Of a stretch of 64,000 nucleotides of DNA, positions 19,420 to 57,470 are shown piece by piece. A program made the translations under genes and the position numbers. The stretch is from Bacteroidales bacterium (lineage in GTDB: Bacteria > Bacteroidota > Bacteroidia > Bacteroidales > UBA932): contig JAFUWY010000014.1 of NCBI GenBank assembly GCA_017477245.1, positions 1-64,000 on the forward strand. Direction: 5' to 3'. Numbering within the stretch: position 1 is the first letter of the stretch; each line of letters starts with the position of its first letter. A model generated the notes under the pieces. The model had not been told where the DNA came from, ran no database searches, and worked only from the letters and a program-made list of their open reading frames with translations.

Positions 19420-24291
<4,872 letters not shown>

Positions 24292-24295
24292 TCAA

Positions 24296-25369
24296 ATGCG
24301 GATTCCCATGGGCAGTAAACGCAACCACCTCATCCTCAATCTCGCGCAGGTCCTCGTCTGGGCCTGCGTGCTGGTGCTCCCGGCGCTGGTCAACTGGCTC
24401 GTCACCGGGGACAAGCAGCATGGCTTCTTCGTCCTGCATGGCTCGCTCCCGATGCTCCTCCCGCTGCTGGCCATCTACCTTGTCAACTACCTCCTGCTGG
24501 TCCCGAAGCTGCTGTTTCGCAAGCACCTGGTCTGGTTCATCGTGGCCAACGCGGCCCTGATCCTGCTGCTGAATTTCCGGATCCTGTTCCCCCCGGCGAT
24601 GAACTTCGAGGTCCCGGAGGCCGTCCGGCAGCAGTTCAAGACGCGGGACATCGTGGCCTTCCGGATGGTCGCCCTGCTGTCTTCCGCCGTCTTCCAGGTC
24701 CTGTTCGTGTTCCTGGCCATCGGCATCCGCTACATCATCCGCTCCAACGACATCCAGATGCAGCTCCAGGAGGAGCGGCGCAAGACCACGGAAGCCGAAC
24801 TGACCTGGCTCAAGAACCAGCTCAATCCTCACTTCCTCTTCAATACGCTCAACAACATCTCCTCCCTGACCCAGATCGACCCGGACAAGGCGCAGGAGAG
24901 CATCGGCCAGCTCAGCGATACCCTCCGGTATGCCCTTTACGACACGACCGCGGAGAAGGTGCCGCTTGCCGGCGAGGTCGAATTCATGGACAACTACATC
25001 CGCCTGATGCAGCTGCGCTGCAACGAGCGGACGGAAGTGACGACTTCCTGGGAGCTCCCGGAGGCGGAGGTCAAGATCGCTCCGCTTCTCTTCATCTCCT
25101 TGATAGAGAATGCCTTCAAGCATGGTGTCAACGCCCGGATGGATTCCTTCGTGCATATCCGTCTCCGGCCTTCCGGACGGGATCTCGTGTTCGAGTGCGA
25201 GAACTCCACGTTCGAGAAGACGGGCGTGGACCACATCGGTTCCGGGATCGGCCTGGAGAACCTGATGCGCCGGCTGGACCTCATCTATCCGGATGCCTAC
25301 AAGTACGAACAACATGAGCAGGGCGGCGTCTATTCCGTCCGGCTCTCGCTCAAAAACCTGTTGCCATGA
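24296..25369 (+). CDS. LytS/YehU-type membrane sensor histidine kinase
   Basis: 357 aa. Four hydrophobic helices (residues about 12-145) are followed by a coiled linker and the His_kinase domain with phospho-acceptor His179 in NPHFLFNTLNNI. The N-box FISLIENAFKHGVN and the G-rich GSGIGLENLMRRL complete the ATPase domain. These kinases pair with LytTR regulators, here encoded immediately downstream with a 4-bp ATGA overlap. ATG 24296 is chosen; ATG 24308 is an alternative. Confidence 0.93.
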   Translation: MRIPMGSKRNHLILNLAQVLVWACVLVLPALVNWLVTGDKQHGFFVLHGSLPMLLPLLAIYLVNYLLLVPKLLFRKHLVWFIVANAALILLLNFRILFPPAMNFEVPEAVRQQFKTRDIVAFRMVALLSSAVFQVLFVFLAIGIRYIIRSNDIQMQLQEERRKTTEAELTWLKNQLNPHFLFNTLNNISSLTQIDPDKAQESIGQLSDTLRYALYDTTAEKVPLAGEVEFMDNYIRLMQLRCNERTEVTTSWELPEAEVKIAPLLFISLIENAFKHGVNARMDSFVHIRLRPSGRDLVFECENSTFEKTGVDHIGSGIGLENLMRRLDLIYPDAYKYEQHEQGGVYSVRLSLKNLLP

Positions 25370-26109
25370 GTCCGCTTCGCTGTATCGTCGTCGATGACGA
25401 GCCGCTCGCCGTCAAGATGCTGGAGAATTTCATCTCCCGTACGCCGATCCTCGCGCTGGAAGCTTCGTTTACCGATCCGGTAGCCGCCCTGGCGGCCATC
25501 CGGGAGCGGCAGCCGCAGCTGGTCTTCCTGGATATCCAGATGCCCGACCTCAGCGGGATGGAACTCTCGCGGATGGTGCCGGAGCAGACCCGGATCATCT
25601 TCACCACGGCCTTCAAGCAGTATGCTTTCGACAGCTACGAGGTGTCGGCGCTGGACTTCCTGCTCAAGCCGATCCGCTACCAGAAGTTCCTGGAGGCGGC
25701 CGAGAAGGCGAATCGCTGGTTCGAGATGGTGGAGGCGGCGCGGCAGGCCCCGCCGGCGACGTTGTCCCAGCCGGAGGACAAGACTTCGGTATTCGTCAAG
25801 ACCGACGGGCAGCTCCGCAAGGTCGAATTCTCGGATATCCGATACGTGGAGGGGATGAAGGACTACGTCCTGCTGCACCTCTGCTCGGAGCGGCAGCCCG
25901 TCGTTACGCACATCACGATGAAGGCGGTGGAGGAGCTTCTTCCCGCCGCCGCGTTCATGCGCGTGCACCGCTCCTATATCGTCGCCCTGGACAAGATCGA
26001 CTCCATCGAAGGCTCCTACGACATCTCGGTAGGCGACACCCTCATCCATGTCTCCGAAGCCTACAAGCCCGCCTTCGAGAAGTACCTGGCGCAACACTCG
26101 CTGCGCTAG
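25366..26109 (+). CDS. LytTR-family response regulator
   Basis: 247 aa. Receiver domain with acidic pocket VVDDEP and phospho-acceptor Asp56 (VFLDIQMPDLSG), followed by FLLKPIRYQKF. A LytTR DNA-binding domain occupies the C-terminal half (FVKTDGQLRKVEFSDIRYVE...FMRVHRSYIVALDKI). It is the cognate partner of the overlapping kinase gene. The target genes are unknown. A palindromic element and then the 51-bp array begin just after its stop. Confidence 0.95.
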   Translation: MSPLRCIVVDDEPLAVKMLENFISRTPILALEASFTDPVAALAAIRERQPQLVFLDIQMPDLSGMELSRMVPEQTRIIFTTAFKQYAFDSYEVSALDFLLKPIRYQKFLEAAEKANRWFEMVEAARQAPPATLSQPEDKTSVFVKTDGQLRKVEFSDIRYVEGMKDYVLLHLCSERQPVVTHITMKAVEELLPAAAFMRVHRSYIVALDKIDSIEGSYDISVGDTLIHVSEAYKPAFEKYLAQHSLR

Positions 26110-26266: not shown

Positions 26267-26999
26267 GCCCCTGGCAATGGCTTTTCCCCGCTGCCAGGGG
26301 CGGAGAATGCCTCCCGCGCCCCCGGCAAGGCCTTTTCCCCGCTGCCAAGGGCGGAGAAGGCCCTCCGCGCCCCCGACAAGGCCTTTTTCTCCGCTGCCAG
26401 GGGCGGACAAGGTCTCCCGTGCCCCCGGCAATCACTTTTCCCTGCTACCAGGGGCAGATTAGGCCTCCTGCGCCCCCGGCAAGGCCTTTTCTCCGCCGCC
26501 AGGGGCGGAGAAGGCCCTCCGCGCCCCCGGCAAGGCCTTTTCTCCGCTGCCAGGGGCGGAGAAAGCCCTCCGCGCCCCTGGCGATGCTCTTTCCCTGCTG
26601 CCAGGGGCGGAGAATGCCTCCCGCGCCCCCGGCAAGGCCTTTTCTCCGCTGCCAGGGGCGGAGAAGGCCCTCCGCGCCCCCGGCAATGCTTTCTCCCTGC
26701 TGCCAGGGGCGGAGAAGACCCTCCGCGCCCCCGGCAAGGCCTTTTCCCTGCTGCCAGGGGCGGAGAATGCCTCCAGCGCCCCCGGCAATGCTTTTTCCCT
26801 GCTGCCAGGGGCGGAGAAAGCCCTCCGCGCCCCCGGCAAGGCCTTTTCCCTGCTGCCAGGGGCAGAAAAGGTCTCTCGCGCCCCCGACAATGCTTTTTCC
26901 CCGCTGCCAGGGGCGGAGAAGGCCCTCCGTGCCCCTGGCGATGCTCTTTCTCCGCTGCCAGGGGCGGAGAAGGCCCTCCGCGCCCCTGACGGAGAGAGG
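26267..26999. repeat. Left tandem array: 14 units of 51 bp beside the RAYT-like gene
   Basis: Fourteen full units run from 26267 to 26981 (thirteen of 51 bp; the third, 26369-26420, is 52 bp), then a truncated fifteenth. Each begins GCCCCCGGCA or GCCCCTGGCA and carries TGCCAGGGGCGGAGAA. Two hairpins compete: GCCCCTGGCA with TGCCAGGGGC, and TTTTCTCCG with CGGAGAA. Two unit sub-types alternate (AAGGCC or RATGCT after the first box). All six frames stay open because 51 is 17 codons, but no start signal is seen, so I regard it as non-coding. The gap 26110-27030 contains nothing else except the element at 26147. Confidence 0.95.
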
Positions 27000-27030
27000 A
27001 TTGTGCAAGGAGGGAGGCGGACCGGGGCTT

Positions 27031-27978
27031 TTATTTGCCGAGAATGGCGCGGACGGCACTCTCTTCCACACGGAGCATCCGACGAATCTGAGGAATCCCC
27101 GCCTTGTAATCATAGTGCAGGGTCATGGTGAGTTCCCGCTTCAGGTCCGGCGGAAGCGTGTCGGGTCGCGAGGTTCCGTATTTATCCTTGCAGATCTGGC
27201 GGACAATCAGATACAATTCATCGTCCGTGCAGAAAACCTGGTGTCCGATCAGACGGGCAATGTCCCGATATCCTTCCACACTCCGGGAGACCAGGGAAAA
27301 ATAGTGTCGCGCATCCCGGAACACCCCCTCGCCCAGAACCAAATCGCAAAATGCGGGCGGGGAGATATACCCGTCCACGATGGCGTGCGTTGCCGGATAG
27401 TCAATCGTGTTGCTACGGAACAGGCGTCTTTTCTCGTCGTAGGTCAGATCGCCGTACTTCCCGTTCTGCCGGAATTTCGCATCCGGATTGAAATAGAACC
27501 GGTTGGCACCCCAGGGATAGGAGAATGGTGTGCTATCCGGATGGACCAGGTATCCGTTCCGGTTGACATAGGCAATGGTGTTTCGAAGAAAGGACAGGTC
27601 GGAGACCGGAATGATTTTCGGCTGGAATGCGGACAGATCCCGGACACGGCCCGTAGATTGGTAGAATCGGTACAACCGTCTTCGCTCCTCTCTGAACCAA
27701 TTGCCGGCTGCTTCGACCGTTCCTTCTCCGACGATATGCAGGTGCGAGCCCATCAACTCGAATGTGATGATGTTGACCGTAGGCTTCAGATGGGTACACA
27801 AAGCAACCAGGTTCATTCCATACCGGAAGTCCTCGGCATTTTCAAACAGGGTGAGTGTTGCGTCTCCGGGTGTACATAAATGAAAGAAAGGTCCACGTTC
27901 CATAAAGAGTTCTTCACATTGCCGTTCGCGTTCTCCGAACGAGAGCGGCTTGGGAGGGGAGGTGAGTAAGTTTTCCAT
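27031..27978 (-). CDS. RAYT-like HUH (Y1) transposase
   Basis: 315 aa. REP-associated tyrosine transposases are single-strand endonucleases of the IS200/IS605 relatives. The HUH motif is His79-Leu80-His81 in ELMGSHLHIVGEG. The likely nucleophile is Tyr137 in RNTIAYVNRNGYLV, followed by the family block TPFSYPWGANRFYFNP. A C-terminal helical part (PPDLKRELTMTLHYDY...QIRRMLRV) resembles a DNA-binding helix-turn-helix. GC content and codon use look lower than in neighbours. There are no IS-like ends; instead 51-bp arrays lie 50 bp downstream and about 380 bp upstream. A -7 box 5 nt before the ATG supports this start; ATG 27903 is an alternative. Confidence 0.8.
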   Translation of the reverse strand: MENLLTSPPKPLSFGERERQCEELFMERGPFFHLCTPGDATLTLFENAEDFRYGMNLVALCTHLKPTVNIITFELMGSHLHIVGEGTVEAAGNWFREERRRLYRFYQSTGRVRDLSAFQPKIIPVSDLSFLRNTIAYVNRNGYLVHPDSTPFSYPWGANRFYFNPDAKFRQNGKYGDLTYDEKRRLFRSNTIDYPATHAIVDGYISPPAFCDLVLGEGVFRDARHYFSLVSRSVEGYRDIARLIGHQVFCTDDELYLIVRQICKDKYGTSRPDTLPPDLKRELTMTLHYDYKAGIPQIRRMLRVEESAVRAILGK

Positions 27979-27983
27979 GTCGA

Positions 27984-27991
27984 CAAAAGTA
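27984..27991 (-). promoter_or_regulatory. -7 box of the RAYT-like gene
   Basis: TACTTTTG on the - strand, 5 nt before the ATG at 27978. The upstream 130 bp (28010-28140) is markedly AT-rich compared with everything around it. Confidence 0.55.
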
Positions 27992-28355
27992 GGGATGTCA
28001 AGCCGTTTTATCTGCAGGTTAAACGTTTAATTTCGATTATTCTTATAACTGATTGTTTGGTAGCGTGATATGAGAATGATAAAAATAATCGTTTGTGTAA
28101 AAAAGGGTGATTTCGCTCCATAAATTGACTGTTTTTTAAAATCGCCATGGCGCTTCTTGCCCACGTCTTGCCCTTGTCATTCCCGTCATGATTCCCGGTC
28201 TCGATCGCTCCTGGACAGGCGGCGGTGGCCCCGGGCATGTGCCGATTCAAATCAGACATCGAAAACAATCCGTCGGGAACTGCCGCGCGTGGTTATGCGC
28301 GGCAGCGACCCGCCTCTCCCCGACCAACTTCTGACCCTGCTCGATTCTCTCGAGG

Positions 28356-28725
28356 CCCACCCTGGGAGCGGAGAAAAGTGGTTGCCGGGGGCAGAGAGGG
28401 TGACCAGCGCCCCTGGGGGCGGAGAAAAGCGGTTGCCAGGGGCGGAGAGGGTGACCAGCGCCCCTGGGGGCGGAGAAAAGTGGTTGCCGGGGGCGGAGAG
28501 GGCAGCCAGCGCCCCTGGGAGCGGAGAAAAGCGGTTGCCGGGGGCGGAGAGTACAGTCAGCGCCCCTAGGAGTGGAGAAAAGTGGTTGCCGGGGGCGGAG
28601 AATGTGACCAGCGCCCCTGGGAGCGGAGAAAAGCGGTTGCCAGGGGCGGAGAGGATGACCAGCGCCCCTGGGGGCGGAGAAAAGCAGTTGCCAGGGGCGG
28701 AAGGGGTCGCGAGCGCCCTTGGGAG
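28356..28725. repeat. Right tandem array: 7 units of 51 bp, inverted relative to the left array
   Basis: Seven units run from 28356 to 28712, each exactly 51 bp, plus a degenerate eighth. Unit pattern: GCGCCCCTGG, GGGCGGAGAAAAG, GTTGCCRGGGGCGGAGAG, then a variable GTGACCA-like end. Read on the opposite strand, the left array gives the same order, CGCCCCTGG-N2-GCGGAGAAAAG-N3-TTGCCRGGGGC. The two arrays are thus homologous and inverted around the transposase gene. No gene is seen in 27979-29026; apart from the promoter regions and repeats, 28140-28355 is featureless. Confidence 0.95.
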
Positions 28726-28804
28726 GAACGGGAGGGGAGAGGTTGGAAGGGAGGAGAGGGAGCCCGGGGCAGCCAGGAGCAGGCGGGCGGGAACGGGATG
28801 CGGG

Positions 28805-28947
28805 AAAGGTTGGCAGGAAAGGTTGGCAGGAAAGGTTGGCGGGAAAGGTTGGCGGGAAAGGTTGGCGGGAAAGGGAGGCAGGAAAGGGAGGCAGGAAAGG
28901 GAGGCAGGAAAGGGAGGCAGGAAAAGGAGGCAGGAAAGGGAGGGGTG
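28805..28947. repeat. 13-bp tandem repeat before pfp
   Basis: Ten units of 13 bp: five AAAGGTTGGCRGG, then four AAAGGGAGGCAGG and one AAAAGGAGGCAGG, ending in AAAGGGAGGGG. The strand is purine-rich with no pyrimidine runs. It ends at the pfp promoter. Confidence 0.92.
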
Positions 28948-57236: not shown

Positions 57237-57262
57237 GTCCGGCAAGCCTGCCGGACTTTTTT
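57237..57262 (+). terminator. Terminator of tRNA-Ala
   Basis: GTCCGGCA-AGCC-TGCCGGAC followed by six T. A second copy of the hairpin and T-run occurs in the next repeat unit at about 57355-57378. Confidence 0.9.
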
Positions 57263-57470
57263 CGTGGAGTATCCGCTCCGCTCATACGGGGGAAAGGTTT
57301 CCCCCGCACGGCTTCGCCGTCCCCCTTCTGTCGGCCTTCGGCCTCCGACTCCTTCCGGCAAGCCTGCCGGACTTTTTTCGTGGAGTATCCGCTCCGCTCA
57401 TACGGGGGAAAGGTTTCCCCCGCACGGCTTCGCCGTCCCCCTTCTGTCGGCCTTCGGCCTCCGACTCCTG
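57239..57470. repeat. Two tandem 116-bp palindromic units after tRNA-Ala
   Basis: 57239-57354 and 57355-57470 are essentially identical. Each holds the terminator hairpin, GTGGAGTAT (inverted tRNA 3' end), GTAT-CCGCTCCGCTC-ATAC, the perfect hairpin CGGGGGAAAGGTTTCCCCCG (57287-57306), ACGGCTTCGCCGT, CCCCCTTCTGTCG and GGCCTTCGGCC. The remaining 57471-57537 holds nothing recognisable. The element is related to 26147-26195. Confidence 0.95.

Follow-up and report, generated by a model that had tools for sequence, protein, structure and literature searches.

What kind of system places a transposase-like gene between two long arrays of the same repeat that face in opposite directions? The question is raised by a locus in a 64,000-nucleotide stretch of contig JAFUWY010000014.1 (Bacteroidales bacterium, assembly GCA_017477245.1; the whole stretch is hereafter the window), where a gene of the RAYT (repetitive extragenic palindrome-associated tyrosine transposase) or TnpA_REP type lies among tandem 51-bp units. 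We consider it probable that this is a RAYT-REP system (REPtron) in which the repetitive extragenic palindrome (REP) has turned into a 51-bp tandem unit, because the protein has the core residues and predicted fold of a RAYT and is accompanied by cognate repeats. Since REPIN clusters beside RAYTs have been published, the kind of system is already known. The locus comprises the following features.

26267-26986, minus strand: left array, 14.1 hairpin units of 51 bp (Tandem Repeats Finder, 84% matches, score 956)
27031-27978, minus strand: RAYT/TnpA_REP-like HUH-Y1 gene, 315 aa (open reading frame)
27568-27570, minus strand: codon of Tyr137, presumed catalytic from the role of this residue in the family; invariant (coordinates from the open reading frame)
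27736-27744, minus strand: HUH motif codons, His79-Leu80-His81; both histidines invariant, A1 included (coordinates from the open reading frame)
27979-28359, no strand: partly AT-rich stretch from the RAYT start to the right array, a presumed promoter region judging by its sequence
28360-28725, plus strand: right array, 7.2 units of 51 bp (Tandem Repeats Finder, 87% matches, score 515)

A preliminary description had the gene bracketed by arrays that were homologous and inverted, and both points hold. The left array lies downstream of the gene, its first hairpin 40 nt past the stop, and the right array lies upstream. Aligned to each other, the two flanks score 190 with one of them reverse-complemented and 43 directly; among 300 mismatched flank pairs the maxima were 36 and 32, respectively. 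The inverted homology is thus real, since it tops every mismatched pair. Both arrays share the unit TTGCC(R)GGGGC - 16 nt - GCCCCTGG plus a purine-rich spacer, with the caveat that the loop sequences differ between left and right.

The protein itself, described beforehand as a RAYT-like transposase, is indeed identified by sequence and modelled fold as a divergent RAYT/TnpA_REP-type HUH enzyme. It carries the HUH motif and single tyrosine of this family, and the best match of its predicted structure is the RAYT-REP complex 4er8, which places the RAYT core fold within it at the level of prediction. His79, His81 and Tyr137 are invariant in all 94 aligned proteins (three of 97 loci, with fewer than 260 aa, were excluded); enzyme activity is presumed. 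In the window protein 55 residues lie between the HUH and tyrosine motifs (49-59 across the family), and the tyrosine motif reads YVNRNG. One could also suppose a role as DNA-binding regulator or organiser of the chromosome, with the arrays as binding sites and catalysis secondary. We regard this as very unlikely, as a pure regulator would not need the three residues that never vary.

Searched with the window protein (E <= 0.001), 33 of 61 genomes gave a match, and these were 33 of the 37 genomes of the window's genus, its own included. A family-profile search (E <= 1e-10) covered 119 genomes of the order and matched 16. Two of these belong to the genus and match at full length; in the other 14 the match, mostly to the Y1 core, extends over no more than 168 of 302 positions. 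Relatives were found in a Candidatus Cryptobacteroides faecihippi genome (37%), in two genomes from deer and sheep metagenomes, and in RUG13447, presumably a rumen genome given its RUG name; for the genus of the window, Cryptobacteroides is accordingly a guess. The window genome holds many divergent RAYT-like enzymes (nine matches by protein, 12 by profile), the closest paralogue of the window protein being 35% identical. One of them, 24% identical, has a 52-bp array of its own (L013, 6929-7117; G000 C28), and similar units form further arrays at L032 166-355 and L042 1852-2092 and 2708-2941.

Is the pairing of gene and repeat more than a coincidence of neighbours? We assembled 97 RAYT loci: the window, seven from its own genome, 29 from the window-protein search and 60 more taken roughly by E-value from the table of that search. 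Among the latter we skipped fragments, matches interrupted by stop codons and some that lay close to the end of a contig, and drew a few from further down. Flank homology was counted in the 83 loci, window included, with more than 700 nt on either side, at a cut-off above every control pair. As controls we used 50 response regulator and phosphofructokinase loci of the genus, five of which lay at contig edges and were set aside. The flanks were homologous to each other in 48 of 83 RAYT loci, compared with none of the 45 controls, which also had no 40-90-bp array. The preliminary description held that RAYT genes without arrays, together with arrays in genomes lacking the gene, would speak for a chance association, and loci of the first sort do exist (35 of 83 lack flank homology); on this ground a fortuitous neighbourhood of gene and minisatellite might be proposed. 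The contrast of 48/83 with 0/45 excludes chance, and the co-divergence of enzyme and hairpin described below argues against it as well, leaving this explanation with a negligible probability. The link between gene and repeats is therefore real but not universal. Inversion is not supported as the design of the system: repeats are mostly direct in 41 of the 48 flanked loci and mostly inverted in seven, the window among them, which makes its layout the exception. In some loci the direct and inverted scores overlap, because the units are palindromic.

Similar periods recur in arrays of unlike sequence. Tandem Repeats Finder detected a flanking array with a period of 45-80 in 28 of 83 loci, 11 of which had one on both sides; of the 39 arrays in this count, 33 had a period of 50-53. 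In a lag test, 69 of 190 RAYT flanks exceeded all 98 control flanks, 51 of the 69 at a lag of 50-53, and unit sequences vary from locus to locus. One RAYT (L075, 821-3522; G016) has arrays with a 74-bp period, not 51, on both sides. These data bear on the possibility that RAYTs seed hairpin doublets only and that long arrays are functionless minisatellites grown passively by slippage, a proposal compatible with ours for the doublets and a rival for the arrays. It accords with array lengths that vary among close relatives (14.1 and 7.2 units in the window, 2.8 and 2.0 at L141 by Tandem Repeats Finder, none by that program at L142, which has doublets) and with a 13-bp tandem array (window 28786-28943; 12.2 copies) that follows closely on the right hairpin array. 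Slippage alone does not, however, predict the recurrence of a 50-53-bp period with different unit sequences, and we hold the passive origin of the arrays to be quite possible, short of probable.

Enzyme clades and hairpin-arm classes change together, with the arms compensated. In the window's clade a 16-nt loop joins the two 9-bp arms of the hairpin, and neighbouring hairpins mostly stand 51 bp apart. The arm classes are GGGGC (window and L199), GGCAC (L202, L203 and L204) and GGAGC (L200 and L201, plus the outgroup L206); window/L199, L202-L204 and L200/L201 each form an enzyme clade with support of 0.99. Within the window's clade two base pairs near the loop distinguish the classes, with full compensation. 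Across 23 hairpins 92.8% of cells pair, falling to 53% or less when the partner is slid; the first figure is favoured upward because we picked the 23 from 38 listed hairpins and the listing kept only those with at least 8/9 Watson-Crick pairs. Cells changed on both sides numbered 27 (shuffles, 9.4), with a covariation score of 0.361 (shuffles, 0.157); 0/500 shuffles reached either value. The compensated arm changes represent few evolutionary events.

The cognate hairpins lie not only beside the gene but throughout the genome. Allowing up to two mismatches, we counted 130 sites of the hairpin pattern in the window genome (three for the reversed pattern, used as a control), 30 in G085 and 11 in G086. 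Each of 60 other genomes of the genus, 37 of which were also searched for the protein, has 0-2 sites (control 0-3), with any site at all in 15. The hairpin is dispersed as arrays in the window genome and stands at background level in these 60. The earlier proposal of a self-amplifying REP-type locus is borne out in kind by this difference, whereas amplification itself can only be presumed. In G008, where there is no close RAYT, the hairpin occurs once as an exact copy; the two matches in G082 are of the GGAGC variant, with a 63% RAYT between them. The window and 20 regions around repeat matches hold 133 units, and each array keeps to one strand except in L045 and L050. L038 and L051 have one unit each; L038 also contains a 43-bp array of about ten copies (949-1370; G000 C25) whose unit is unlike the hairpin family.

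Several observations weigh against assignment as a RAYT-REP system with its own repeats. The 35 loci without homologous flanks include four of the five own-genome paralogues whose flanks are long enough. One natural unit per array folded no better than its shuffles (z of -0.09 right and -1.08 left), and the GT[AG]G foot tag is not conserved: the foot tetranucleotides of the seven right-array units are GTGG (3), GCGG (3) and GCAG (1). Of five covariation measures, two do not rise above shuffles (both-side-changed pairs, 4 versus 3.6; further pair types, 7 versus 8.8). No Pfam or NCBIfam model matched the window protein; the curated RAYT profile NF047646 points both ways, since at E <= 0.1 it matches 42 of 68 family members but not the window protein. 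Finally, G086 has four GGGGC-class hairpins (0-1 mismatch), yet its two close RAYTs carry GGAGC and GGCAC. The lack of a conserved tag does not exclude the wider family, because TnpA_REP classes 2.6 and 3 also lack it, according to the parts of PMC6006769 drawn on here.

How did the window come by its inverted layout? The sister species G008, which is 80-89% identical in DNA over four aligned blocks, has neither the gene nor the arrays, and the segment corresponding to window 21661-26087, encoding an outer-membrane receptor, a histidine kinase and a LytTR regulator, is inverted there. Relative to ligA, this block (window 21661-26109; L197, L234, L235) points one way in the window and G086 and the other in G008 and G085. 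Its ends carry hairpin doublets in G086, inverted to each other, and RAYT genes in G085. In G086 and G085, too, the regulator is followed by a RAYT, but on the same strand. In G086 it has direct doublets on both sides (110 direct versus 31), and the doublet at the far block end is inverted to these two (137 and 136 inverted; 55 and 24 direct); in G085 one doublet lies upstream and the next past a small open reading frame. On our reading, the upstream array of the window has the orientation relative to the gene seen in the orthologue L141. The array downstream of the gene, in contrast, is reversed; it begins at +40, compared with a hairpin at +3 to +6 in five of seven close relatives. We infer that gene and block were flipped via recombination between repeats. 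At the bracketed site of one orphan array, G008 has no such array, and no counterpart of a second turned up in the same stretch, which is partly rearranged. Elsewhere in the window, tRNA-Ala(CGC) is immediately followed by two exact tandem copies of a 116-bp unit (57238-57469).

It could also be proposed that gene and arrays together make up a mobile element of the IS200/IS605 type, the hairpin arrays being its ends. A Y1 peel-and-paste element needs same-strand hairpins at both ends, and the mostly direct repeats of 41 of 48 flanked loci, to the extent that palindromic units let orientation be read, agree with this, as do the downstream hairpins 3-6 nt past the stop in five of seven close relatives, the presence of L199 and L204 on separate contigs of G085, and the empty site in G008. 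The window arrays, in contrast, are inverted, and near-identical RAYT copies within one genome were not seen among 98 loci (best same-genome pairs, 68% and 67% identical), so that we think a mobile cassette unlikely.

For a RAYT-REP system we propose that the enzyme would recognise the hairpin in single-stranded DNA, that Tyr137 would nick beside it, and that the hairpin would then be moved or copied. The basic form may be a doublet with 51-bp spacing, from which strand transfer, or else slippage and recombination, could build up arrays; the window layout would arise if the gene flipped inside or between arrays. A bolder and rather doubtful extension is that RAYTs build their own arrays, that the 50-53-bp period stems from enzyme geometry and not from sequence, and that arrays act as local inversion switches. 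The last part is suggested by the receptor-kinase-regulator block, which occurs in both orientations among four genomes and by inverted cognate doublets at its ends in G086; arrays may thereby have had a role in inversions between species. How RAYTs choose and spread REPs is a wider question, for which one genus supplies many enzyme-hairpin pairs. Arm swaps can test a recognition code, since three arm classes differ at two fully compensated pairs, and array growth is testable because the 51-bp period recurs over different sequences and the sister site is empty. Inversions driven by the arrays, if they occur, would make RAYTs a source of local rearrangement next to a regulator operon.

Among known systems, IS200/IS605 elements share the Y1 core and, with most flanked relatives, same-orientation hairpins on both sides, as far as palindromic units show orientation; here near-identical copies within a genome are lacking. 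BrickBuilt, a MITE or minisatellite of Porphyromonas gingivalis (PMC4596501), likewise forms dispersed tandem arrays in a Bacteroidales genome, with a 23-nt unit and an abstract that names no transposase. TnpA_REP subclass 2.6 (Bertels group 5) has in common the Bacteroidetes host, untagged atypical hairpins and copies elsewhere in the genome. Membership in it was rejected, as the HUH-Tyr distance is about 56 against a median of 82 and the tyrosine motif is YVNRNG against YIH[QN]NP (PMC6006769, in the parts consulted). We found no report of 51-bp arrays around Bacteroidales RAYTs in open-licence PubMed Central papers. To say that no described system has this layout was nevertheless too strong: REPtrons, tag-less hairpins around Bacteroidetes RAYTs (PMC6006769), REPIN clusters beside RAYTs (PMC3116915) and tandem bacterial interspersed mosaic elements (BIMEs) are all in print (also PMC3733652, PMC3686654 and PMC8266576, each as far as the portions used here extend). 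The RAYT/REP REPtrons of Enterobacteria, Pseudomonas and Stenotrophomonas are also close, sharing an HUH-Y1 enzyme, cognate palindromes both beside the gene and dispersed, co-divergence of enzyme and repeat, and no near-identical enzyme copies per genome. The present system differs in its lack of the conserved GT[AG]G tag, its 16-nt loop in the window's clade, its mostly direct flanks and long 51-bp arrays, its many divergent enzymes per genome and a long C-terminal part. Tandem cognate repeats, some beside a RAYT, are also known from the REPIN clusters of P. fluorescens SBW25 and the BIMEs of E. coli; in SBW25 such clusters adjoin each RAYT, and the largest ordered one has four REPINs and one REP (PMC3116915, in the sections drawn on). 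There the repeating unit is a REPIN or BIME, whereas here it is one hairpin per 51 bp, in arrays of up to 14 units.
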